Shown here: positions 33,137 through 61,190 of the stretch, one piece after another
Layout: each line of letters opens with the position of its first letter
How positions within the stretch are numbered: the first letter of the stretch is position 1
Assembly: GCA_029261715.1 (NCBI GenBank)
Contig: JAJDAT010000031.1
Coordinates: forward strand, 1 to 64,000
DNA length: 64,000 bases
Reading direction: 5' to 3'
Source of the DNA: Nitrospinia bacterium
GTDB lineage: Bacteria; Nitrospinota; Nitrospinia; Nitrospinales; JAJDAT01
Translations under genes and position numbers: made by a program
Notes under the pieces: model-generated
Told to the model about the DNA's origin: nothing
The model's database searches: none
What the model saw: the letters and a program-made list of their open reading frames with translations, nothing else

Positions 33137-33542
33137 AATATAAATTTCCTATTAATTTCAAAACTTTGATGATTCTCATGTTTTTTATGATGTTTTCCAA
33201 ATACTAGATGCCGCCTCTATAATTTTTATCTTAATATTACTTTAAAACTGAACATTTTTCTTATATGTTAAATCTGTTACAAGCCATAGTTGCTGGAGAC
33301 GGTTAATTACAAAAAAATAATGTTAAATGGATGGTAGTTCGTTTTTGAAATTAGAAGCCTTGAAACTCGAATTTTTAATTGTCCAAGATAATTAAAGGTC
33401 GAAAAAATATTAATTTGTTGTACAATGCCTGGCTTGATAATTTGAGCGCTGCTAAGTCCACTAGCTATAGTATTTTTGAGGGATAATTTTTTGGTATCAG
33501 TATTCCCAAAATTTACTTTTTTATAAGTTTTAGAGAAAGTTT
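33137..33542. other. intergenic region upstream of tRNA-Leu
   Basis: About 400 AT-rich chromosomal bases between the SGNH gene and tRNA-Leu. No independent gene is seen. The minus strand of 33307-33542 is open, but only as the accidental continuation of the recombinase frame from the element. A tRNA promoter must lie here; several TATAAT-like hexamers exist and none stands out. Confidence 0.5.
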
Positions 33543-35154
33543 GCCGAAGTGGTGAAACTGGTAGACGCGCTGGACTCAAAATCCAGTGAGGGCAACCTCG
33601 TGTCGGTTCGACTCCGACCTTCGGCACCAATTCGGACTCACCCCCCTTCAGGTCCTCTAGAAGCCTGAAGGGGAGCGAGTTTGCAGCGGTTCGAAACCCA
33701 CCGTTTCGGTAGTAAGGTAATTTGGTGCAAAACACCAACCGCAGCACAATTCTTTTGTCCTCTAGTCTGTCGGAAGCCCATAATTTACAAGGGTTTGCGA
33801 GGAATCCAAAAGCGGTTCGAAAAGTTTCACCAAAGTCTTTGAGTGGACGACCACAATTTTCGATTTTTTCCTTCAATCCGGTCTTTTCCTCTTCCAGTTT
33901 TTTGATCTGATTTTCATAGGTCTTAAGCAAAACCGGACTATCAGCCTCAACAATCCGTTCTAAAAACTGTACAATTTTGTGCTCAGTTTTAGAGATTTCA
34001 GCTTTCAAAGACCGTCCCTGCAATTTTGATTTTTGCAACTGATCTTCCCAGAACGCTTTAAGCAACTCAAATGCCATAGAAAACAGTTTTTGTGAAGGGG
34101 AGAGGTTTTCCAACAATTCCTGAAATTCTCCCTCTATTTGCTCTTTGCGGACGGATTTCCGGTAATCCGGGCACTCTTTACTTCTGCAAAGATAGTAAGG
34201 GTATCTTTCCTTACGCCCTTTGGACCAGCACGCTGTCATGGGATGATCGCAATTACCGCAGGTCACAAAGCCCCGGAGCGGAAAATCCGCATTAATATCC
34301 TTTCTCACAGGAGCGCGGGCCTGTTCCTTATCGCGGTTCTGGACTTTTTGCCAGGTTTCGAAGCTGATAAGAGGTTCGTGCTTTCCGGGTTGCAGACGAA
34401 TATTCCATTTGGGAACGTCAATATATCCAGCATAAAGGACCCGGTCCAGGATTTCCCTGATCCGCTCGAACTGAACCTCGCCTTTTCTGTCTTTGGGATA
34501 TATGGAGCAGTTTTCTAAAAACCGTTTGATCTCGCTATGCGTTTCGAAACGGCCCGAAGCATAGCCTTCAAAAACCTCCTGAATAACGGAGGCCATAGGT
34601 TCGTCACGAACAAGCACTTTTCCGGAATGACCGGAAACGCCTTTTTCGTAGCGATAGCCCGGAGGTGCATTAAAGGGCCAATAACCGTTCAATATCCGGC
34701 CCCGCATGCGGTTTTTTGTTTGCTCTGCGTTTTTTTGACGATGATGTTGCGCCACGCTGGCGAGAAGATTTTCTACCAATTGGCTGTCGGAATCCTCGCC
34801 GAATTCGATAGAAGGCGATTCCAGCTTTCCGCCTGTTTCGCCGATGGCCAGCCGGAGGTCGACATGGGCTTTCATACCCCGCGCCAGACGGCTGATATCG
34901 TCGATAATAACAGCGTATTCCCCCTCTTTACTTTTTCTAAGAAAAGAGAGCATATCCTGCATGCCGGGGCGGTCGATCAAAGAGCCGGATACGCCTTTAT
35001 CCTGGAAAACCTGGATGATATTGTAGCCCTTGTTTTCGGCGAACTGACGGCAACGTACCTCTTGAGAGCCGAGGCCGTCTCCTTCTTCCACCTGCGTAAC
35101 GCTGGAAACGCGGCAGTAAATGACAGCTTTTTGGTTTATGGCATCATCGGGCAT
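33307..35154 (-). CDS. large serine recombinase (integrase) with host-derived C-terminal tail
   Basis: Order of domains: an N-terminal resolvase domain with the catalytic Ser in YCRVSS and Arg in DDISRLARG; a recombinase domain (about 170-290); a zinc ribbon with CGNC and CRSKEC (about 300-340); a coiled coil (about 370-430); and a family-typical end FRTAANSLPFRLL. Residues from about 510 (VPKVGVEPTRGCPHW...) are the antisense translation of tRNA-Leu and upstream chromosome, reaching 615. Joined to the other element end, the frame would instead end after 33 different codons at 61043 (542 residues). The start follows AAAGGAAG. It integrates and, with a directionality factor, excises the element. 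Confidence 0.9.
   Translation of the reverse strand: MPDDAINQKAVIYCRVSSVTQVEEGDGLGSQEVRCRQFAENKGYNIIQVFQDKGVSGSLIDRPGMQDMLSFLRKSKEGEYAVIIDDISRLARGMKAHVDLRLAIGETGGKLESPSIEFGEDSDSQLVENLLASVAQHHRQKNAEQTKNRMRGRILNGYWPFNAPPGYRYEKGVSGHSGKVLVRDEPMASVIQEVFEGYASGRFETHSEIKRFLENCSIYPKDRKGEVQFERIREILDRVLYAGYIDVPKWNIRLQPGKHEPLISFETWQKVQNRDKEQARAPVRKDINADFPLRGFVTCGNCDHPMTACWSKGRKERYPYYLCRSKECPDYRKSVRKEQIEGEFQELLENLSPSQKLFSMAFELLKAFWEDQLQKSKLQGRSLKAEISKTEHKIVQFLERIVEADSPVLLKTYENQIKKLEEEKTGLKEKIENCGRPLKDFGETFRTAFGFLANPCKLWASDRLEDKRIVLRLVFCTKLPYYRNGGFRTAANSLPFRLLEDLKGGESELVPKVGVEPTRGCPHWILSPARLPVSPLRQTFSKTYKKVNFGNTDTKKLSLKNTIASGLSSAQIIKPGIVQQINIFSTFNYLGQLKIRVSRLLISKTNYHPFNIIFL
33543..33629 (+). tRNA. tRNA-Leu (anticodon CAA)
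   Basis: Folds as a class II tRNA. The acceptor stem is GCCGAAG/CTTCGGC, and the anticodon arm CTGGA-CTCAAAA-TCCAG gives anticodon CAA. A long variable arm (TGAGGGCAACCTCGTG) is followed by the T-arm GTCGG-TTCGACT-CCGAC, discriminator A and an encoded CCA. The last bases lie at the left junction of the integrated element, so part of the CCA end may be supplied by the element. Confidence 0.97.
33624..33627. other. attL core (proposed)
   Basis: GCAC at the tRNA 3' end, shared with 61141-61144. Upstream of it the tRNA sequence CGACCTTCGGCAC matches the right-end CGCCTATCCGCAC at 9 of 13 positions, as expected for related attB and attP half-sites. Joining the ends here restores a longer native recombinase frame. 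The exact crossover dinucleotide is unproven. Confidence 0.55.
33643..33673. repeat. 10-bp perfect inverted repeat beside the attachment site
   Basis: CCCCTTCAGG (33643-33652) and CCTGAAGGGG (33664-33673) with an 11-base spacer, sixteen bases inside the proposed left end and within the 3' coding part of the recombinase. No T-tract follows, so it is not a typical terminator. It could be part of the attP recognition region or an mRNA hairpin in the recombinase transcript. Confidence 0.6.
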
Positions 35155-35169: not shown

Positions 35170-35448
35170 TTACTTACCTGGCGTTTTACGCGCCTTCTTT
35201 TTACCCGCCGTTTGCGAACTAAACTTTTTTGTTAGTTTGTTATTTTTCGAGTCTATAGTTTTGTCCGGACTCTGTAAATTCTTCTTTGAAGCTTCTTTGA
35301 GGCTGAGTTGCACCGGATCGATTCCAAAAGCCTGATCAACAAAGCTCTGCATGATAGCAGCAAGATCGTGAAGAAATTCGATCTTTTGTTCTTCCGTCAT
35401 ATCGTACTCATCCATGTATTTTCGGTATTTTTCTATGTCTATACTCAT
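35170..35448 (-). CDS. small acidic/basic protein of the integration module
   Basis: Protein of 92 residues. It has a helical acidic N-terminal half (MSIDIEKYRKYMDEYDMTEEQKIEFLHDLAAIMQSFVDQAFGIDP) and a Lys-rich C terminus. It ends 15 bases before the recombinase start and is preceded by AAGGA, so it is cotranscribed with the integrase. The position and size would suit a recombination accessory or directionality factor, but no helix-turn-helix is obvious; the function is open. Confidence 0.7.
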   Translation of the reverse strand: MSIDIEKYRKYMDEYDMTEEQKIEFLHDLAAIMQSFVDQAFGIDPVQLSLKEASKKNLQSPDKTIDSKNNKLTKKFSSQTAGKKKARKTPGK

Positions 35449-35691: not shown

Positions 35692-36255
35692 TTAAACTTC
35701 CAGTCCTATCCGCTTAAAGGCTTTGGGAAGGGTGTCGCGGCAACATCCCAATTCCAATGCTAAAGTTTCGATGGTTGCTTTGCCTGTCGTTACTTTGGCA
35801 TGAGCCTTCCGCAAATCTTTATCGTCGAACAGAGGGGGTCTTCCCAAACGCTTCCCGCGCCGCCTTGCGGCTTCCATGCCTTCTTTGGTGCGCTTGCTTA
35901 AGTAACGCCTTTCCAGTTGTCCCTGCGCGGCCATGATCGTATAAACATATTCGCCTTCCGGCGTAGAGGTGTCCAGATGCATGGTCACGATTTGGAACTC
36001 CACGCCGCGTTTCCGCAATTTATTGGCTTCCAGTAAGGCATCAATCGTGGAGCGGAAAGCACGGTCTAAATCCCAGACGACAAGAGTATCGCCGGGTTTT
36101 AATTTCCGGATGACTTTTTTAAACACTGGGCGCTTTTTAGCCGTGGCGGAGAGTTTTTCAATATGGATTTCATCACAGATATTTTTTAAACCGTCAATTT
36201 GGCGGTCAGGTTTTTGCTCGTTTGTGGAAACGCGTAAATAGCCGATTTTTTTCAT
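35692..36255 (-). CDS. resolvase/invertase-type serine recombinase
   Basis: Protein of 187 residues. The catalytic domain has YLRVSTNEQ with the active Ser, then VWDLDRAFRSTIDAL and the long E-helix (TIMAAQGQLERRYLSKRTKEGMEAARRRGKRLGRPP). A short C-terminal helix-turn-helix region follows (TIETLALELGCCRDTLPKAFKRIG). This is the Tn3-resolvase/Hin family size and order. It may resolve multimers of the circular element or invert a segment. It has an excellent ribosome binding site, GGGGAGG. No clear paired res or inversion sites were found in the 197-base upstream region. Confidence 0.9.
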   Translation of the reverse strand: MKKIGYLRVSTNEQKPDRQIDGLKNICDEIHIEKLSATAKKRPVFKKVIRKLKPGDTLVVWDLDRAFRSTIDALLEANKLRKRGVEFQIVTMHLDTSTPEGEYVYTIMAAQGQLERRYLSKRTKEGMEAARRRGKRLGRPPLFDDKDLRKAHAKVTTGKATIETLALELGCCRDTLPKAFKRIGLEV

Positions 36256-38451: not shown

Positions 38452-39954
38452 TTAGGATTTCTTGGAGGGAGAAACTATCGCAAGGAATTCCGAGATAAAT
38501 TCATTTGAGAGGTCACTAGAACCAAGGCATGATTGTTTCTGGAAAATTTTATCAATATCCATATTGAGCATCTCTGAAGATTTCAGGATATCTTCTACCT
38601 TAGTGGAGTTTTCTAAAATAAATTTTCTTATCTGAGTAGCAATGGCCTTCATCTCTTTATCAATGCCCATTAAGATTTTTGTTATAGGAGAATCTTTGAA
38701 GTTTTCATGTAATAACAGCATACTCAATCTGGTGAGTGGTGAGGGATGTTCACCTCTAAACAGGATATTGCGCAATACGGGATGGGTTGAGTAGTAAACT
38801 TTAGCCAACTTTGAACCGGAATGGTGTATGACAGAAAGACAGTCATAAATTTCCATTACCGTAAAAGTTGCTATAGCCCCAATATACACACAAAGACTTT
38901 TTTGATCATCCAAGTCATTGTCTGCGCAATATTTTGAAATGCAATGAAAACCATGAGCATCTGCCTCTTCTTCAATAGGTTGATGGATGCAAAAATTCCG
39001 GTTGTCAACAGAGGCACCCTCTATTTGTGAAAGTTTATTTTTAAAATGCAAAGAAAGGTCTTTTATCATTTTTGGGTCTCTTAAATTAATTCCTTCCATT
39101 ACCTTTATCTCTGCATGATTGTTGTAAGAATGTGAAAGTTCGTGTCCAATCAAATAAACATAAGCTCCTCTACAGGCGAGAAAATGTGCCATCTTATCAT
39201 TAAGTGGGACGTCAACCGGATGGTTCAGTGAATTTTCCTCATTGGTCTCTGGGTTATCCTTGGGATTTTTGCTTTTCAAGTTGTTTTTCTCGATTCTCCT
39301 CATGAGGAAGTCTTGAACTAGCCAAGTTTCATTTGCATGGGGAAATTTGACATCCCGGTCTTCCCGCAATTGTTTATACATTTTTTTTGATAAACATAAA
39401 CTTGTGATGATATCTAGAACATTCGGGAGGTTATTTTTCCTGCTACCTTTCCCAAATAGCAATGGATTAAGGATTGGAAGGAGATATCTATAAATTTTAG
39501 GCAATATTGAAAGTATCCCCTCATTGATGAAAACAATATCTGTATCTGGGTTATTTCTTAAACAAATTCCATTTACATTTAGAAAAGGCAATGTGGTCAA
39601 TATGATATTCTTTTTTTGAGATGGGTCTCCGTCCGTAAAGACTTCATGGCATAGTTGGATTATATTTGTGAACCGTTGCAGAAAAGGTATGCGGTCATAC
39701 TTTGTGGCCCCGCATGAATGAAGAAACTTGAAGTATTCAAGGGAAGTGTCATAATGATGTTCTGGCATGAACAAATGAAAGCTTTCAAGCTTGGCATATT
39801 CCTCCTCCAAACTCATTTTTTTCTTTTGAGCGGACTTATGGTTTCTTTCCTTATTATGTTCGAGAACATCATCAGGGTTGATATTTAAAGAAAGAAATGC
39901 GGCAGTTTGTATGCCCTCAATTTTTTGGCCCAATTCTTCTGTCAATTGGAACAT
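38452..39954 (-). CDS. cytoplasmic zinc metallopeptidase-like protein
   Basis: Protein of 500 residues. In the middle, YLIGHELSHSYNNH gives an HExxH zinc site, and EEEADAHGFHCI supplies a third Glu ligand at a gluzincin-like distance (about 60 residues). Near the C terminus HPSPLTRLSML resembles the conserved His-Pro segment of M48 peptidases. There is no signal peptide and no clear membrane helix, so it acts in the cytoplasm. Long flanking regions without known domains make it an unusual architecture. It is AT-rich and pairs with the upstream ankyrin gene (118-base gap) on the same strand. Confidence 0.75.
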   Translation of the reverse strand: MFQLTEELGQKIEGIQTAAFLSLNINPDDVLEHNKERNHKSAQKKKMSLEEEYAKLESFHLFMPEHHYDTSLEYFKFLHSCGATKYDRIPFLQRFTNIIQLCHEVFTDGDPSQKKNIILTTLPFLNVNGICLRNNPDTDIVFINEGILSILPKIYRYLLPILNPLLFGKGSRKNNLPNVLDIITSLCLSKKMYKQLREDRDVKFPHANETWLVQDFLMRRIEKNNLKSKNPKDNPETNEENSLNHPVDVPLNDKMAHFLACRGAYVYLIGHELSHSYNNHAEIKVMEGINLRDPKMIKDLSLHFKNKLSQIEGASVDNRNFCIHQPIEEEADAHGFHCISKYCADNDLDDQKSLCVYIGAIATFTVMEIYDCLSVIHHSGSKLAKVYYSTHPVLRNILFRGEHPSPLTRLSMLLLHENFKDSPITKILMGIDKEMKAIATQIRKFILENSTKVEDILKSSEMLNMDIDKIFQKQSCLGSSDLSNEFISEFLAIVSPSKKS

Positions 39955-44691: not shown

Positions 44692-46701
44692 ATGAAACAA
44701 TCAGACCAACGAAGTAAACCTTCCTCCACCCTGGCCACTCTATGGAGTGGCCTTTTTTTCTACGCCACATATAGAACATGGTTCCTGTATGGAACACCTT
44801 ATAGCTGGGTGCCGGTTACTTTTGCCGTTATAGCTGGTGTGAATTCTCTGACTGCTTTAAGCGGTTTGATTTCTTTTCTTCACAATATCTTCCTTTTAAT
44901 GGAAGCCTTTGGGAAAACGGTATCGAAGGGTAGCAGCGCCTGGGCCACTTCAGCCGAAATCAGAAGAGCCGGACTTTATAAAACCGACGGGCTTTTCTTT
45001 GGATGCGATCAAACAGGACATCCGCTTTTTTATTCGGCAGAAAGTCATGGTCTTACCCTGGCTGCTTCAGGATATGGAAAAACGCAATGTTTTACATTAC
45101 CGGCGCTCTGTAAACATGAAGGATCAGCAATTGTCATGGACTTCAAAGGGGTTCTGGCAGTACAGGTAAAACATTTATTAGAAAAGAAGTACGGAAAAAA
45201 AGTTTACATTTTAAACCCCGCAGGTTTGTACGAAGATATATTAGGTCCTTCCGATCATTTAAATCCCATAGAGTATTTAATTGATGATTGGAAAGATGAA
45301 TCTAAACATCCTTTTTTAATTCCTCATACAAAAGGATTTGCTTTCCAATTATCACCCGACCCAAAAGTAATAGGGGACAACCAATATTTTATAAATGCTT
45401 CAAGACGCTTGGTTGTCTTTGGAATGCTTTTTTTAGTTACGCATGATGACTGTGAAAATGCCAATCTATGTGAAGTATTACGTTTACTCCAAAATGAAGA
45501 CCGCTTGTTGGATGCGCTATCCATTGCCTCCGCCTCGGAATTGTTAAATGGAGAGCTTGTGGATATGGCGTCAGACTTTTTGAAAAAGTTTGAGGTGTCT
45601 GATCGGCGGCAGATTGAAAGCATCAGGGAAGGAGCAATCCAGGCCGTAGAGCATTATTCTCCCAGTTCTATGCTATCAAAAATTTCCAGAAAAAGTTCGT
45701 TTCGTTTTAAAGACCTTAAAAAAGAAAATGCTGTTGTATTTGTAATTACTGATGCCGCCAGTGGAAAAGCAATGAATGCCTGGCAAGGGGAGGTGGGATT
45801 TAGCTCTATTACTGAATTAACCATGTGTCGAAATAATAAGCCGGTGTTGTATCTATTTGACGAGGCTACTAATTTCAAAATTGAAAATTTACCAAATTCT
45901 TTAACAACCATGCGTGAATACGGGTTAAGAGCCCATTTCGTGATTCAGGAACTAAGCGAATGGAGCCGGGTCTATGGTAAGGAAGCATTGGACACACTTC
46001 TTTCCCAAACTGAAATAAAACAAATTTTCGGAATTCAGAGCCAGAAAACGGCTGAATTAGTGAGCCAGATGTTGGGTGAGGAGACTTTGAAATTGCCGAA
46101 CTATAATCTGGGACATGACCATAATGACAAGGTTCAAAAGTCTTTGAATGAAAGCGTTCGTAGACTACTTACCCCAGACGAAGTAAGACGTTTCACGGAT
46201 TCTATTTTGTTTGTTAAGAATATGAAACCAATCAGAGCCAAATTAATAGGAGTGCACGAAGTTAAGCCTTGGTCCCGTTGGCTAAAAGTGAATCCTTTAC
46301 ACGGGAAAAAACTTAAAGGTAAAACCCATGTTTGGCTCAGTTATTTCTGGCGTTTTATCACGGGTCGTCCGAGTGTTTCAAAATATTTAAGAATTAAGCC
46401 CCAAGCAGGAAAAGGAAAACCCTTAGTCTATTCTCTGCAAATGGGACTGGCTTTATTTAGAGGAGGTCTGGCTTTGGTTCCGTTGGTTGCCATTATCATT
46501 ACGTTTTCGTTGCCAAAGACACCTCACGTTTTGACCTATTACGAGAGATACGGATCTTATTCCGCGTGTACTTATTTTGGAAAGAACGGAAAAGTAGAAT
46601 TGCCTTCGGCCCATGATTGCTCGGTTATTACCTTCATTGGCGAGGAAAGTCAGTTCGACTTGTCGTCATATATGCGTTCGATTTCATCGATTTTTAATTG
46701 A
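44692..46701 (+). CDS. type IV coupling protein, VirD4/TraG family
   Basis: Protein of 669 residues. Two N-terminal membrane helices (about 15-65) precede the ATPase domain. Walker A is AASGYGKTQCFTLPAL (about 122-137), followed by VMDFKGVLAVQV, and Walker B lies in KPVLYLFDEATNF (about 382-394). It would carry the relaxase-DNA complex to a secretion channel. Unusually, after the ATPase core a third hydrophobic segment (about 585-610) and an extracytoplasmic tail of about 60 residues follow. GAGG precedes the ATG. The element has no channel genes, so it likely docks with a helper's system. Confidence 0.9.
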   Translation: MKQSDQRSKPSSTLATLWSGLFFYATYRTWFLYGTPYSWVPVTFAVIAGVNSLTALSGLISFLHNIFLLMEAFGKTVSKGSSAWATSAEIRRAGLYKTDGLFFGCDQTGHPLFYSAESHGLTLAASGYGKTQCFTLPALCKHEGSAIVMDFKGVLAVQVKHLLEKKYGKKVYILNPAGLYEDILGPSDHLNPIEYLIDDWKDESKHPFLIPHTKGFAFQLSPDPKVIGDNQYFINASRRLVVFGMLFLVTHDDCENANLCEVLRLLQNEDRLLDALSIASASELLNGELVDMASDFLKKFEVSDRRQIESIREGAIQAVEHYSPSSMLSKISRKSSFRFKDLKKENAVVFVITDAASGKAMNAWQGEVGFSSITELTMCRNNKPVLYLFDEATNFKIENLPNSLTTMREYGLRAHFVIQELSEWSRVYGKEALDTLLSQTEIKQIFGIQSQKTAELVSQMLGEETLKLPNYNLGHDHNDKVQKSLNESVRRLLTPDEVRRFTDSILFVKNMKPIRAKLIGVHEVKPWSRWLKVNPLHGKKLKGKTHVWLSYFWRFITGRPSVSKYLRIKPQAGKGKPLVYSLQMGLALFRGGLALVPLVAIIITFSLPKTPHVLTYYERYGSYSACTYFGKNGKVELPSAHDCSVITFIGEESQFDLSSYMRSISSIFN

Positions 46702-54095: not shown

Positions 54096-54797
54096 TTATG
54101 GGTTAAAAAAAGTTAAAAAAATATGGGCAATTGAAATATTTGGGAAATACGATTCAGAGTTTACTGTTCGTTTATGTTCTGTATCAAAGTTTGCGACTGA
54201 TGGAAAAACAGCTGAAGGATAACGAATAAGTTTACCTTTCAAGCAGGGAACTATTTTTAATTCTTTTGTGATTTTTTCTTGAGTTATATAATTTTTTAGC
54301 TTGTTTAGACATACCTCTTTATCTCCAACAATCATGGCCACCATTGCGGCTATTGGTTCGTTTTCACCATAACGTCTATCGACAAATCGTTGCATTCCAT
54401 CTTGTCTTACATAAGCTCGTATACTTTTTGAAGCGTTACAGAGTTTTTTAAATTCGAAGATCAATACTAATCTCATTTTCCCAGAATTTGAAAAATAAGT
54501 AATATCTTTCCTAGTCCTTTCGATTATTTCACCAGTTTTTTTGTCGATTTTAATTTGAGGATTTTCATTTATCCAAAATCCGGTTAATCTACCTTTTGAT
54601 TTCGAAAAGTTGTCGATGTAATAATGTAATCTTTCGGTAAGATAGTTCTCTCTTTTAGAAAGGTCGAAAAACTGTGGCTGAGAGCTAGCCATTTCTTGCC
54701 ACGTTTGAAATAAAAACTCCGCTGCCCGGCGTGCCTCATCAAATGGAAATACCTTTTTCCAAACATCGGGTTTGGAAGAGGTTAATTGCTCACTCAA
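54096..54797 (-). CDS. PD-(D/E)xK-like nuclease partner of the methyltransferase
   Basis: Protein of 233 residues. A candidate nuclease core reads KDITYFSN (Asp about 99) then RLVLIFEFKKL (Glu-x-Lys about 114-116), the D...ExK pattern of restriction endonuclease folds; an upstream Glu in the helix ENYLTERLHYYID would complete it. Its start overlaps the methyltransferase stop by four bases (ATGA), so expression is coupled. Probably the cleavage or accessory subunit of a restriction-modification or related defence system. The fold assignment rests on motif spacing only. Confidence 0.6.
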   Translation of the reverse strand: MSEQLTSSKPDVWKKVFPFDEARRAAEFLFQTWQEMASSQPQFFDLSKRENYLTERLHYYIDNFSKSKGRLTGFWINENPQIKIDKKTGEIIERTRKDITYFSNSGKMRLVLIFEFKKLCNASKSIRAYVRQDGMQRFVDRRYGENEPIAAMVAMIVGDKEVCLNKLKNYITQEKITKELKIVPCLKGKLIRYPSAVFPSVANFDTEHKRTVNSESYFPNISIAHIFLTFFNP

Positions 54798-57700
54798 TAT
54801 GAATTTACCTCCTGAATGAAGCGAACAATTCGTTCTGCATCTTGATAAGCTTCACCTCTTAACCAAAGACGACGTATAAGTGGTTTTATAAGATATAGAG
54901 AATCTTGATGCCTAATAACTGTATCCGCAATAAGGTAGAGATTATCTTGTGTTTTTAGAGGCAGAATATCTTCTTTTCTAAGTTTGTTAAGAACAGCTAT
55001 AACAGCACTATCCGTTATTTTTCGGTTCCACAGGTCGGAGGAGTTTCCATGTTGTGTTGTCTCCAATTTGATAATCCCTAACCTTCCAACATCTTGATCA
55101 GAGCCTCTTAGAAATGAAATTTTAAAAGAGCCTTCTCCATTCATTGCATCCCTCCATTCATTAAGCTCATTCAAAAACGTATCGGCGTAATCGGAAATTA
55201 TTTTTTTGGAGACAGGGGCCTGTAAAGGTGTTTGCAAATCGGAATATGAAGATGGTTGTATGCTTGGAAGAATGTATTTTATAACTTCCTTAATACGGGC
55301 ACGTTCGCTTTTTTTTAGTTCAAAATAATCCCAAATTTTTTCCTCTGCTTCTATTCTCCAACGCTCATATAAATATTTTTGTTCTAAAACATGTTCCTTC
55401 TCTAGGTTTTTGGTAAATAGTGCAATTTCCGAAATTATTTCTTTCGCTTTTTTAGGATTAGAATGATTATTCGGAGCAAAGAAGGGAAAATTTTTTATAT
55501 CGTTTAGACTTACGCGTTCACGTTCAAAAACAACTTGATAGGCTGTCATTATGAGGAAATAACGGGCTAAGTCAGAATGAAGATAAACTGATATAAAACG
55601 GAGTAAATCATTGTCTATTTTATGAGCTACTATCGCAGCAATGCTACTTGAAAATGAAAATGGTTTAGAACTGTATGCGGCCATTATTTCACGATTTGAA
55701 TTAAGGCCATCGGTAAAGACAATTCGTGCCTCATTAAAAGCTTCTGGAAATGATTTTGGTAACCTGGCTATAGTTTCGATTTCATCTGGAAAAGCTCGAA
55801 GAACTTGGTGGTCTAACAATGGTCCATTAGTTTCAAAGTGTTTGGCATTTAGATAAGGCCATTGATGCAGTTCCTCTGTAGAGACTGGAGATGGTTGCGA
55901 TACGTCTTTCTTATGAAAACCCTTGGCAATACTCCATCCCTCAGTTTTTTTTATAAAATCTCCTAAAGTCCCTGATATCTTAAGACGGGTAATTGTTCCA
56001 AGATCATGTTGTGTTCCCCAAAAGAGTGTAGTCAAAAGTGAATTATTACTCGAAAGAGAAGAAGCTGGAATAACATGACGGTCAGTTCCATGTAGAGCTA
56101 ATCGTCCGAAGGATAAACTTACATCTGCTTTTGGTACCCTGTATTCAATCGTTTGTTGAATACTATTATCATTTTTTAAAGCACGAGGTTTTGCAACTAA
56201 AATTAGAGTTGGTTGCTTTGCATCATCAAAAAGTAATTTTCTTATATCTCCAAAATTGATTATGGTTTCAATTTGATAGTGTCTTAGCAAAAGCTTTATG
56301 AATTTTTGACTTGTATGGGCCGCAAGCAGACTTACTGGAAGAATAAAACAAACTATCCCATCCTTTTTAAGACTATTTAAGGACCTTAACAAAAATGCTG
56401 CGGAAACTTGTCTTCTTGGAATTTTATAGCCTTTTTGCTTTGCCCAGATGTCTGAGGAAAGTTCGGAGTTGCTAGGAGGCTCTACCCAAGGTGGGTTACA
56501 AAGGAAAAGGGAAAACTGTTGAGAATTTACAAGTGGATTTTGCTTTGAAAAGAGATCGCCTTCTTTTTTTCCTACTCTGATATTTCCACCGAGAAGATGG
56601 GGCAAACGAGCTTTACCTGATTTATAAAGTTCTGCAATATCAGATGGCTGAAGATTTTCAAGTACTGATAAATATAGGCTGAATGCGGTGACACGACATG
56701 CAGACTCATTTATATCGGAGCCATAAATATTCTGTTTAAGTAGACGAGTTCGTTCTGAGAACGATAATTGACGATTTCTTTCGGATTCTGCATGAGCCAA
56801 CATCCTACGAAAAGCGGTTGTCAGCAAAATTCCGGAACCACAAGCACCATCGTAGATTTTTTCTTTTAGAATATTCTTTGATCCCAGAAAAGCTTGGTTG
56901 ACGACTAGGTTAGCAAGATGCCTCGGTGTGTAATAGGCACCTATTATACGTTTTTCATCTGACAAAAAAGATTCATAAATTCCAGAAATAAGTTCAACGG
57001 GAATAAATCTAAAATCATAATTCCATAAATCCTGCTGCCCGGTTTCAAGGTTTACACGGCTTAAAAAATCATCTAATTGCTGTAGAGCATTGTTTGATAA
57101 TTGAGCCCAAATATCGGCTCTTTCATTTGGTGCATCTAACAAATCTCCGTTAAAATCGTTTTTTAACCGTTCGAGTAAACGGATAATACCGTTTTTATCT
57201 TTACTCTTTATAAGATCATGTAATAAGCCAACTTTCCTTTTCTCTCTGTAAGAATTTCCAACTATTTGCCTATGCTCCAGATAAGAAATGAACATTATTT
57301 GGGCCATAAGAAATTGAGCTTTTAAACGTGACAACCCAAATTTCTCAATATTTTTCACAACGACAAAAAGATTTCTAAGAAGTTGGCGGTCCACTCTGTT
57401 TTCAGGTTGGAACCAATCAATATGGCGGGAAAAAATCTCACCTGATTGAAAGTCTGCTTTAGAGTAGGGGCTAAATAAATGAGCTTCAGAATATTGAATA
57501 GTCTTGGGGGTTACATCTCGTTGACTAACAGGAAGAGCTGAAGCTTTTGATGCATCGATTGTAAGAACCACAGAAATTAAATTCTGATTCCATATTTTTT
57601 GTCGAATTTCTTCTAAATCCAGTCGAGTACTTTTATGCTCTCCTTCAAAGAAGCAGACAGTAGGAACTCCTTCAATATCAAAGACAGCATGAGCTTGAAT

Positions 57701-57841
57701 TTCTCCGTCAGTCCTTAAAAGCTCTTTAAGCTCCCTATGGTAAGGGTGAGCTATAGGAAGATCTTGGTTGGCTAAATGCAAATTACTTGAGGAATTACTA
57801 TATCCCCAAGTTTTAAGCCATTTTTTTAGATTAGTTTTCAT
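54794..57841 (-). CDS. N6-adenine DNA methyltransferase (Eco57I/type IIG-like)
   Basis: Protein of 1015 residues. The N-terminal 130 residues contain GVPTVCFFEGEHKS and may be a degenerate nuclease-like region. A helical region follows, then YYTPRHLANLVV and methyltransferase motif I DGACGSGILL (about 330-339), GSDINESACRVTAFSLYLS, and catalytic motif IV NPPW (about 450-453). The last 400 residues should hold the target-recognition domain and a helical end. It methylates adenine in double-stranded DNA. Size and order resemble Eco57I-type or PglX-like enzymes. AT-rich cargo next to ardA; paired with the 233-residue gene. Confidence 0.85.
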   Translation of the reverse strand: MKTNLKKWLKTWGYSNSSSNLHLANQDLPIAHPYHRELKELLRTDGEIQAHAVFDIEGVPTVCFFEGEHKSTRLDLEEIRQKIWNQNLISVVLTIDASKASALPVSQRDVTPKTIQYSEAHLFSPYSKADFQSGEIFSRHIDWFQPENRVDRQLLRNLFVVVKNIEKFGLSRLKAQFLMAQIMFISYLEHRQIVGNSYREKRKVGLLHDLIKSKDKNGIIRLLERLKNDFNGDLLDAPNERADIWAQLSNNALQQLDDFLSRVNLETGQQDLWNYDFRFIPVELISGIYESFLSDEKRIIGAYYTPRHLANLVVNQAFLGSKNILKEKIYDGACGSGILLTTAFRRMLAHAESERNRQLSFSERTRLLKQNIYGSDINESACRVTAFSLYLSVLENLQPSDIAELYKSGKARLPHLLGGNIRVGKKEGDLFSKQNPLVNSQQFSLFLCNPPWVEPPSNSELSSDIWAKQKGYKIPRRQVSAAFLLRSLNSLKKDGIVCFILPVSLLAAHTSQKFIKLLLRHYQIETIINFGDIRKLLFDDAKQPTLILVAKPRALKNDNSIQQTIEYRVPKADVSLSFGRLALHGTDRHVIPASSLSSNNSLLTTLFWGTQHDLGTITRLKISGTLGDFIKKTEGWSIAKGFHKKDVSQPSPVSTEELHQWPYLNAKHFETNGPLLDHQVLRAFPDEIETIARLPKSFPEAFNEARIVFTDGLNSNREIMAAYSSKPFSFSSSIAAIVAHKIDNDLLRFISVYLHSDLARYFLIMTAYQVVFERERVSLNDIKNFPFFAPNNHSNPKKAKEIISEIALFTKNLEKEHVLEQKYLYERWRIEAEEKIWDYFELKKSERARIKEVIKYILPSIQPSSYSDLQTPLQAPVSKKIISDYADTFLNELNEWRDAMNGEGSFKISFLRGSDQDVGRLGIIKLETTQHGNSSDLWNRKITDSAVIAVLNKLRKEDILPLKTQDNLYLIADTVIRHQDSLYLIKPLIRRLWLRGEAYQDAERIVRFIQEVNSY

Positions 57842-58147: not shown

Positions 58148-58654
58148 ATGTCCAGTTTTTATGCGCAGCCTTATGATATTTCTGCAACAGGATTTTATTT
58201 TGAAATCTTGGAAGAGTACGAAGAAAAATCTAGTAAATTAGTTAATGACGCAGGATTTCCCGTAGAAGAATTTGAAATTCAGTTTATCGATGGGGAGGAT
58301 ATTGATTGTAAATTATTTGATGCGCTGGGTTTAAGTCAGTGTAATATCGGCCCCCTTATTGATGCGGCGGAAAGCTGGGGCGAGTGGCAGAAAATAATCG
58401 TCATTCTTGCCGTAGGGGAATGCGGCTATGATTTTGACCCCGAAGACGGTAACCCGGATGATTTTGACATTGATATTTATGAAATGGATTCCATGAAGGA
58501 ATTAGCAGAGCATTTTGTTGATGAAGGACTGTTTGGAGAAATTCCTGAAAGTCTCATTCACTATATTGATTATGATGCGATAGCCCGCGATTTAAGTACA
58601 GAATATAGCGAGGCAAGAATTACCGGAAGAAGGTTTATCTATCGATACGTTTGA
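58148..58654 (+). CDS. ardA: antirestriction protein ArdA
   Basis: Protein of 168 residues, the usual length, strongly acidic. The start (FYAQPYDISATGFYF) and the characteristic C-terminal part (ELAEHFVDEGLFGEIPESLIHYIDYDAIARDL ... ITGRRFIYRYV) match ArdA. It mimics B-form DNA and blocks type I restriction enzymes, protecting incoming element DNA. AAAGGAGAGG precedes the ATG. It is typically expressed early from the leading region of conjugative DNA, consistent with its place near the mobilisation genes. Confidence 0.93.
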   Translation: MSSFYAQPYDISATGFYFEILEEYEEKSSKLVNDAGFPVEEFEIQFIDGEDIDCKLFDALGLSQCNIGPLIDAAESWGEWQKIIVILAVGECGYDFDPEDGNPDDFDIDIYEMDSMKELAEHFVDEGLFGEIPESLIHYIDYDAIARDLSTEYSEARITGRRFIYRYV

Positions 58655-59231: not shown

Positions 59232-60515
59232 TTAATAAAGCTCTTGCCCATGACCTTTTTCAAAAGCCTGGGTTAAAGCTTTCTCTTTTGGGGGAGGTGG
59301 AGTTCCGCCGATCTCGACATAATGCGCAATAGTTTCCCTCAATTCCAGCATTTGGTTTTGATAACGTTCTTTAAATTCGTTAAGTGATTTTTGAAGTCTC
59401 TGGCGTTCCTGGAGCTGGCGATTGATGAGATTTTGTTTTTCGTCACGATCGCGCAACTGACAGTTTTCTGTTTCCCGCTCGTTCTCGGCACGGATTTTTT
59501 TGTATTTTCCGGTAATGCGATACCAGATTCCTTTAAAGCCTCTTGGCAGTCTTTGGAAACGTTCAGTTTCTTCCTTTTTCCACCGCTCTTCCTGGCGTTC
59601 TTTCAAATTCTGTCTTTGTTTACGGTGATGGTTTCTGATCACCTGTTTCCGGCGTAACAGAGGTTCTTTTTCTTTCTGGGTTTGGTTTTTGACTTCCTGT
59701 ACGTAATTCTCAAGTTTTCCTGTCATGCGCCGGACCAGATCCACTTTGACCTCTGCCACAGAGGGTAGGTCTTTCGGATCGCCTAGACAGCTTTTTAACT
59801 CTTTGGGTTTTATATCCAGTTTGCGGCTCAGGGAAAATATCTCCCCGCGATAATCGACGGCGACAAAGCCGCGCCTGTCACCTTTTGCCAGGGTAAAACC
59901 TCTTTCTTTTAGTGCTTGCGCAAAAGCGTTTTTACTGTCTGATACGGCCCAGCATTCCCTGAATAACTCTATAAGTGCTTGGGGGTCTTCATTAAGGCGT
60001 TTAGCCTGTTGCCATTCTGAAAGGCTAAAATTGAGAGGATCACGCTTCTTACTATCCATCATGCCACGCGGCATTTGCCAGCCATATTTATAGTAAAGTT
60101 CTTTGGAAATCTCCCGCAGTTTTAATTTATAGAAAGAAAGACTAACGGCCTTCATTTCCTGCGTATTAATGCGCGACCAGACACAATGCGCGTGACGCCG
60201 CCCTTCCTTTTCATGAAAGACGATGGCGCGAGGTTGTCCTTCCAACCCCGTTTCTTTTTCAATTTTCGCAAGAGCGTTTTCAAAATATTCTACGGGAACG
60301 TTTTCCGTTTGCGGTGGGTTCAGGCTTACGGAAAACATAAATTGCCTGCACTTTGTTCCCTGACTTACGGCGTAAATCTCCTGTAAAGCATCATGAATAT
60401 TATCAGACATAAAACCGCTGATTTCATGAATTTCGACGTGTTCGTTTTCTTCAGTCTTCAGTAGGTGGCGTGCTAATTGTCTGGCACCGCCGCGCTGGCT
60501 TGCCTTAAGAATCAT
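59232..60515 (-). CDS. mobA: relaxase of the MobA/VirD2 (MOBP-like) type
   Basis: About 427 residues. The N-terminal 170 residues form the relaxase domain: KASQRGGARQLARHLL, then RAIVFHEKEGRRHAHCVWSRI with the metal-binding HxH near residue 110. The C-terminal half (about 230-400) is a long charged coiled coil. The protein nicks oriT and pilots the strand through the coupling protein. The start at 60515 (MILKAS) fits; the frame opens at 60533. It overlaps the upstream RHH gene by 11 bases. More GC-rich than the chromosome. Confidence 0.88.
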   Translation of the reverse strand: MILKASQRGGARQLARHLLKTEENEHVEIHEISGFMSDNIHDALQEIYAVSQGTKCRQFMFSVSLNPPQTENVPVEYFENALAKIEKETGLEGQPRAIVFHEKEGRRHAHCVWSRINTQEMKAVSLSFYKLKLREISKELYYKYGWQMPRGMMDSKKRDPLNFSLSEWQQAKRLNEDPQALIELFRECWAVSDSKNAFAQALKERGFTLAKGDRRGFVAVDYRGEIFSLSRKLDIKPKELKSCLGDPKDLPSVAEVKVDLVRRMTGKLENYVQEVKNQTQKEKEPLLRRKQVIRNHHRKQRQNLKERQEERWKKEETERFQRLPRGFKGIWYRITGKYKKIRAENERETENCQLRDRDEKQNLINRQLQERQRLQKSLNEFKERYQNQMLELRETIAHYVEIGGTPPPPKEKALTQAFEKGHGQELY

Positions 60516-60903
60516 GATTGTTTTTAACCGCAAGACCGAGGGCTTTAATCAAGGCATAACGAATCCATTTAATATCAAGGCAGCAATCGGCAATGGCTTT
60601 TTCCGTTTCCGGCGAAACGATGAGGGAGCCTGATTTAACGGAATTCGCGAGATGGTTTAAGTTTTCGGATATTTTCATGCGCCCCAACTCGCCTAAAATT
60701 TGTCCTAATTCCTTGTGGTCCTTAACAGGGAATTTTCCCCGTGTTTTTCTTTTCGAAGCATCCGGTCCAAACAAACTGGAACGGACATAATCGCTTAAGG
60801 ACATACCGGCGGCATTACGCTCAACCCGTGCATACTCTTCGAGTCTTAGGCGCAGAGTAATAACCCGTGTCCTGTTGTTTTGTTTTTCAATCATATTTTT
60901 CAT
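60505..60903 (-). CDS. MobC-like ribbon-helix-helix relaxosome accessory protein
   Basis: About 132 residues (start MKNMIEKQ; frame open to 60948). The N-terminal segment RTRVITLRLRLEEYARVERNAAGMSLSDYVRSSLFG is a ribbon-helix-helix DNA-binding domain as in MobC/TraJ-like accessory factors. The rest is helical (ELGQILGELGRMKISENLNHLANSVKSG). It would bind oriT and help the relaxase. First gene of the mob pair; the start codon is not certain. Confidence 0.82.
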   Translation of the reverse strand: MKNMIEKQNNRTRVITLRLRLEEYARVERNAAGMSLSDYVRSSLFGPDASKRKTRGKFPVKDHKELGQILGELGRMKISENLNHLANSVKSGSLIVSPETEKAIADCCLDIKWIRYALIKALGLAVKNNHDS

Positions 60904-60979
60904 TCTGTAAATAAAATACACCCTCATCCCCCGTATTTTGGGAAACAAAGGGCAAAAAAGCTTTAAATCTGAGGGAGTT
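60904..60979. promoter_or_regulatory. candidate oriT/mob promoter region
   Basis: Short region directly upstream of the mob genes, where MOBP oriT sites usually lie. It contains CCCC-GTATTTT-GGG (about 60939-60952), an imperfect inverted repeat, and no gene. This is placement by convention; no nic sequence is recognised with confidence. Confidence 0.3.
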
Positions 60980-61026
60980 AAAAAAGAACAAGCCCTCGGA
61001 GGAAGAACCTCCGAGGGCTTGTTTTT
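60980..61026. terminator. bidirectional terminator, proposed end of the circular-form integrase gene
   Basis: Perfect 16-bp stem AACAAGCCCTCGGAGG / CCTCCGAGGGCTTGTT (60987-61002, 61008-61023). TTT follows on the plus strand and CTTTTTT on the minus strand. Read leftward it lies about 20 bases after the stop codon at 61043-61045 of the stranded recombinase tail. Confidence 0.9.
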
Positions 61027-61042
61027 GTGGTAGTATTATTTT

Positions 61043-61144
61043 CTAGGGATCAAATGTTAGATCAATGGAAGCATCCTTGAGAATGGTGTTCCAGTCCTCT
61101 AAAGTCTGGAAAATTTGATTTGACTCTTCTCCGCCTATCCGCAC
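61043..61144 (-). other. stranded native 3' end of the recombinase gene
   Basis: From GTG at 61144 the minus strand is open for 33 codons (VRIGGEESNQIF ... LKDASIDLTFDP) to a TAG at 61045-61043. Joined at GCAC to 33628, it continues the recombinase frame exactly in register after ...GGESEL, giving 542 residues. The terminator follows. In the integrated state it has no start codon or promoter of its own. Confidence 0.65.
61141..61144. other. attR core (proposed)
   Basis: GCAC shared with the tRNA end at 33624-33627. Chromosomal sequence would resume at 61145 (TCAAACAATAAAAGG) and lead directly into a terminator hairpin, as expected just downstream of an unoccupied tRNA gene. Confidence 0.5.
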
Positions 61145-61153
61145 TCAAACAAT

Positions 61154-61190
61154 AAAAGGTTGTGGGAGAAATCCCACAACCTTTTTTGTT
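61154..61190 (+). terminator. Rho-independent terminator, probably original tRNA-Leu terminator
   Basis: AAAAGGTTGTGGGA-GAAA-TCCCACAACCTTTT (61154-61185) followed by TTGTTTTT. No plus-strand gene precedes it inside the element. Removing the element puts it about 10 bases after the tRNA-Leu 3' end, where it makes sense. Confidence 0.88.

Follow-up and report, generated by a model that had tools for sequence, protein, structure and literature searches.

That an attachment (att) site can lie within a serine integrase gene, with exchange of the enzyme's C terminus, and that such an enzyme might work only on the circle, are ideas already published. In the streptococcal rumA ICEs (2016), the att site is in the serine integrase gene, the C terminus is exchanged, and a functional difference was proposed (PMC4701971); IMEs with related serine integrases occupy the same rumA site (PMC5704250). 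The dsiB gene of Dehalococcoides (2011) overlaps attL at ssrA, and the authors suggested that DsiB is possibly fully functional only on the circle (PMC3146451). In the integrase of Mx8 (Tojo 1996; Magrini 1999), as summarized in PMC4701971 and PMC6070905, attP is in int and the C terminus changes from 112 to 13 residues; the re-tailed enzyme is described in these summaries as less active or of altered specificity. Mycobacteriophage integration-dependent immunity also has attP in a gene whose C terminus is changed by integration (PMC8092301). An earlier note on the DNA studied here knew of no such case for a mobilizable element with a large serine recombinase (LSR), a statement refuted by the rumA ICEs and IMEs (PMC4701971, PMC5704250) and by DsiB (PMC3146451).

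Results

The Integrated Recombinase Gene Reads through tRNA-Leu

We analyzed a 64,000-nucleotide stretch of DNA (hereafter the window) from a Nitrospinia bacterium (contig JAJDAT010000031.1). It contains an element spanning about 33,628–61,144 (~27.5 kb), whose target is tRNA-Leu(CAA). The features at the integrase end are as follows.

33307–35154, minus strand: LSR ORF, integrated form, 615 aa (ORF call and domain search)
33543–33629, plus strand: tRNA-Leu(CAA), the target gene, with the CCA at 33627–33629 coming from the element side
33624–33627: attL copy of the shared core (GTGC on the minus strand, 33627–33624; end comparison)
33606–33612, minus strand: T-arm motif GTCGAAC, candidate zinc-domain motif, at +17 from the TGG position in attB

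The LSR frame passes the element boundary at the tRNA-Leu CCA, continues through the tRNA in antisense, and stops in the chromosome. Residues 1–510 (to 33625) are element-coded or core, and the remainder is antisense tRNA-Leu and chromosome. The protein has a Resolvase domain (Pfam E = 2e-25), a Recombinase domain (PF07508), and a zinc ribbon (PF13408), and it resembles CcrB; the Y, R, and S of the Y-x-R-x-S motif are invariant in a 34-sequence alignment. A model of a relative from Cerasicoccus (L023) matches the Bxb1, phiC31, and Listeria integrases in fold (Foldseek) and contains long helices (357–405 and 409–435; coiled coil).

Seven base pairs beyond the tRNA CCA, inside integrase codons, lies a 17-nt inverted repeat (88%; 33636–33652/33664–33680). 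A similar repeat is seemingly also present in a second element of the host (contig C32) and in others. The repeat may end transcription of the tRNA after integration or form part of the att site.

A Native Tail Is Stranded at the Other End of the Element

The far end of the element carries the following features.

61043–61144, minus strand: stranded native C-terminal tail, VRIGGEESNQIFQTLEDWNTILKDASIDLTFDP plus TAG (33 open codons, closing in TAG)
61141–61144: attR copy of the shared core (GTGC on the minus strand; end comparison)
61118–61124, minus strand: attP counterpart of the T-arm motif, GTCAAAT, degenerate (3/7 mismatches), at +22, i.e., 5 bp further out
60987–61023, minus strand: intrinsic terminator behind the native tail, 16-pair stem and T run (terminator search)
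61154–61185, plus strand: former tRNA-Leu terminator, now 27.5 kb away from the tRNA, in the chromosomal flank of attR

When both ends were joined at GTGC computationally, one frame of exactly 542 aa was obtained, with its own stop codon and terminator. The predicted circle junction, reconstructed from the two ends, would read ...GAATTGGTGCGGATAGG... By this reconstruction, integration would replace the last 32 residues of the 542-aa LSR with antisense tRNA-Leu-derived sequence. Because the chromosomal flank of attR is the former terminator of the tRNA, attB can be read as tRNA-Leu...GGCAC followed by TCAAACA; the CCA of the present tRNA-Leu is contributed by the element. The tail itself (61144–61043) has no start codon in the window and an in-frame TGA stands just upstream of the core, and we therefore rejected its being a separate gene. 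The earlier note had described a 615-residue frame running antisense through tRNA-Leu, 33 open codons ending in TAG ahead of a terminator, and an in-frame 542-residue join at the shared GTGC/GCAC; the ORF and tRNA calls, the 16-pair stem (61023–60987), and the computed join, respectively, bear out these claims.

Relatives Carry the Same Tail, Either Uninterrupted or Stranded

LSR relatives (roughly 45%–65% identity) were gathered by a scan of genome contigs and a search of related genomes, which included none of the host's genus or family. Judging by record titles, the hosts belong to Nitrospirales, Alphaproteobacteria, Gamma- and Betaproteobacteria, Polarisedimenticolaceae, and Cerasicoccus. 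In phage and plasmid collections there were no close LSR relatives (best matches below 30% identity), nor were any detected in a scan of viral contigs. In nearly all close relatives, the LSR ORF terminates antisense within a gene for tRNA (Leu, Arg, Ser, Met, Thr, Phe, Glu, or Ala) or tmRNA (L039 and L041). The exception is the Cerasicoccus locus L023, where there is no tRNA and the LSR continues unbroken into MARIDGNSSSELFNALADWEIQLKHLEEDI and a stop codon, followed by a terminator and mob genes. This gene order (LSR, native tail, terminator, mob) is the one predicted for the circle of the window. In a remnant (L009), the LSR end and the tail are likewise contiguous. Homologous recombinases thus do not all end before the att site without such a tail, an outcome the earlier note had named as contrary to its reading: L023 is uninterrupted, and stranded homologous tails are many.

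A profile built from nine tails found a stranded tail in the host's own second element (C32:30645, with the LSR at 39831, 9.2 kb apart). Tails were also found in the genomes of most relatives, on the LSR strand and upstream of the LSR, at distances of about 3.5–46 kb where contig identity could be checked. The frames of LSR end and tail agree in 19/19 pairs with an assignable core, these pairs being related and not independent trials. The variable core trinucleotide is identical in 18 of the 19 related pairs, compared with a shuffle mean of 6.6 (0/20,000 shuffles as good). L010 was counted despite its core mismatch; L013 (one core base missing) and the second tail of L007, having no assignable core, were excluded. 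In L014, both halves are displaced by one base and still fit in frame. We conclude that the presence of homologous tails, one in an unbroken gene and many others stranded opposite integrated LSRs, together with the 19 agreeing frames and 18 agreeing cores, excludes chance.

One 9,849-bp contig (L017), with the tail at one end and the LSR at the other, was considered as proof of a circle and rejected: the direct junction is out of frame, bases apparently being missing. Within positions 1–110 of this contig, the tail stop codon and the ATG of the following mob gene overlap; integrase and mobilization genes could therefore be translationally coupled on the circle and not when integrated. Two further tails in the genome of the window (L116, G000:C16:273157; L117, G000:C20:89424), on contigs without an LSR match in the genome search, are probably remnants of earlier elements. 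Another genome (G152) has tandem tails 0.7–0.8 kb apart (C1 1229453/1230181 and 877881/878670), a pattern that suggests repeated insertions with loss of the elements between.

Attachment Sites Share a T-Arm Motif

The family pairs have the core TGG[CT]G[CG] at the CCA end of tRNA or tmRNA genes. Counted from the core TGG, a TTCGAAC-like motif stands at +17 on the tRNA side (attB) and at +22 on the tail side (attP) in most pairs. The attP motif is degenerate in both the window and C32 (3/7 mismatches), with the copy in the window still at +22. The left arm of attB is not conserved. An outward shift of the zinc-domain motif by 5 bp in attP versus attB is a signature of LSRs (PMC3783163), and across the relatives we found both the short core and the 5-bp motif shift that LSRs should have. 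The attB motif is the T-arm common to tRNAs and tmRNA, and this may explain why so many genes serve as targets. The genome of Methylorubrum rhodinum also contains an uninterrupted site to which its joined flanks align across the junction (91%, query 1–477); in two other genomes, matches across the junction are weaker.

The computed join, the relatives, the frames, and the cores together strongly support attP being inside the integrase gene throughout the family, with circle and integrated forms predicted to encode different C termini and, as the earlier note proposed, different mRNA 3' ends.

The Tail Evolves as Part of a Protein

The tails share the motif SN-x-[LI]F-x-x-L-x-x-W-x-x-x-L, of which the Trp and Leu are near-invariant across several phyla. 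For 35 tails, we measured substitutions in codons W-7 to W+4, outside the roughly 25-bp att half-site. Divergence at codon positions 1, 2, and 3 was 0.41, 0.25, and 0.63, and pN/pS was 0.43 in frame versus 0.83 and 1.49 in the shifted frames. Hence the tail is a selected part of a protein, and the codon-position test beyond the half-site rejects conservation from attP DNA alone. Since the tail has no start codon in the integrated copy of the window, the simplest view is that selection sees it as part of the integrase, i.e., on the circle. In the AlphaFold model of the L023 enzyme, the tail is a helix (low confidence, pLDDT about 44–51) and is unplaced; the native tail is probably amphipathic-helical. 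Its conservation indicates that the native tail matters to the protein, and the keeping of a tail that is lost upon integration, in relatives from many bacteria, suggests that the exchange matters too.

Gene Content of the Element

Other genes of the element include the following.

35170–35448, minus strand: small conserved ORF directly upstream of the LSR, candidate directionality factor (homologue in 24/30 relatives)
44692–46701, plus strand: TraG/TraD-type coupling protein (domain search)
59232–60533, minus strand: MobA/VirD2-like relaxase (domain search)
60505–60948, minus strand: NikA-like mobilization protein, behind the tail and terminator on the inferred circle

The small upstream protein follows the pattern KYxxxxxxFDLTxxQKxELIxxLWxIMxSFVDxAFGxHPxQ and has no Pfam or NCBIfam match. 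Beyond the coupling protein, no further T4SS genes were found in the portion of ORFs scanned. A small serine recombinase consisting of the catalytic domain only (35692–36255, minus strand) lies near the LSR and is reminiscent of DsiA in the Dehalococcoides islands. The cargo includes a type IIG restriction-modification enzyme (54794–57841, minus strand) and an ArdA-like antirestriction protein (58148–58654, plus strand). Between the tail terminator and the mob genes (60921–60951) there is a conserved stretch of GTTTCCC, then ACGGG or similar, then GATG and GTAT. It is present at three tails of this genome (window, L115, and L116) and could be an oriT.

Discussion

What stops serine integrases from reversing integration is a central question, and the usual answer is separate directionality factors. 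In the family described here, whether the DNA is circular or integrated would determine the sequence of the enzyme itself, and the tail that is lost is a defined and conserved stretch open to experimental test. We propose that the element carries attP in the 3' end of its own LSR gene, about 32 codons ahead of the stop. On the circle, the gene would encode the native 542-residue enzyme and finish at its own terminator. The partner of attP in recombination would be a tRNA or tmRNA gene, at its CCA end, where the enzyme would recognize the conserved T-arm TTCGAA to one side. Crossover within the core TGG[CT]G[CG] would keep the frame, replace the tail with antisense tRNA-encoded residues, and strand the native tail at the far end. 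The native-tail form would be integration-proficient and the re-tailed form altered, most likely reduced, in activity or stability, and such a reduction would help to hold the integrated state.

For the anatomical part of this reading (site position, frame, tail conservation, and generality), which is drawn from comparison of sequences, we estimate a probability of roughly 0.85. The functional part, a native tail for integration and an altered re-tailed form, seems to us evenly balanced; since the re-tailed Mx8 enzyme is described as less active, analogy favors reduced or altered activity after integration. A bolder version, held only tentatively, is that in this T-arm-targeted family, found across several phyla, the helix exchange would be a one-step switch: the circle isoform would integrate, and the rewritten form could not reverse the reaction unaided.

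The best-surviving alternative is that attP is in the gene only through a compact attP-next-to-int layout, the C terminus being exchanged without regulatory effect. The enzyme does seem tolerant of many ends, as the re-tailed ends run from 12 to over 100 residues past the core, and the tail DNA is in part conserved for its role as an attP arm. However, codon-level purifying selection extends beyond the half-site, the Trp and Leu are kept across several phyla, and the compensated frame shift of L014 leaves the tail in frame; we consider this alternative unlikely. Somewhat less probable still is a switch of direction, in which integration would be the task of the native-tail form and excision that of the re-tailed isoform, perhaps aided by the small upstream protein acting as a directionality factor. 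C-terminal parts of LSRs control directionality (PMC3783163) and the small conserved ORF precedes the LSR in 24/30 loci, but the re-tailed ends are without a selected conserved feature, and the xxGxEP stretch that they share stems from the tRNA T-arm itself. By the geometry of mycobacteriophage integration-dependent immunity, where attP is in a gene and the C terminus is exchanged (PMC8092301), the native tail might instead be a degradation tag removed by integration. We find this improbable, given that the tails end in FDP, SST, EDI, SEN, or PQP, which are not ssrA-like, and that conservation is in the internal helix and not at the very end. Finally, the tail is short and without its own start codon, but a chance open frame of 33 codons can be rejected with near certainty given that many genomes contain homologous tails (lowest E 2e-15, whole-genome search) and that these show a coding-type substitution pattern.

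If the native tail is exchanged as we propose, C termini annotated from integrated copies in this LSR family are not those of the native protein. The att sites also offer a simple rule for tRNA targeting, a T-arm motif shifted by 5 bp between attB and attP. What appears to be new is the conserved native tail under coding selection and the T-arm targeting by serine integrases; we found no report of either in the open-access literature searched. We also considered PMC11476347 as a precedent and set it aside: a serine recombinase close to a tRNA site is mentioned there, but the integrases are described as tyrosine-type.

Among the known systems, Mx8 resembles the window, in the summaries cited, in having attP in int and a replaced C terminus, and differs in being a phage with a tyrosine recombinase. 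In mycobacteriophage immunity, it is the repressor gene that contains attP; the viral tail serves as a degradation tag, and the integrase belongs to the tyrosine type (PMC8092301). Closer are the rumA ICEs and IMEs, in which the att site is inside the serine integrase gene and integration swaps the integrase C terminus, as in the window. According to the sections cited, they insert into a protein gene that itself also ends up with an exchanged C terminus, and the reading frame is not kept; a conserved tail and T-arm targeting, both found in the family of the window, are not among the features reported in those sections. DsiB, by its published description (PMC3146451), is a CcrB-like serine integrase, about 540 aa long and encoded by putative IMEs; its gene always overlaps attL at the tmRNA gene. 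The LSR of the window likewise resembles CcrB. For DsiB, the T-loop was given as the place of crossover, with a repeat of 20 bp, and a native tail was not demonstrated, whereas in the family of the window the core is the CCA end, the targets are many tRNA genes as well as tmRNA, and the native tail is identified and under coding selection.
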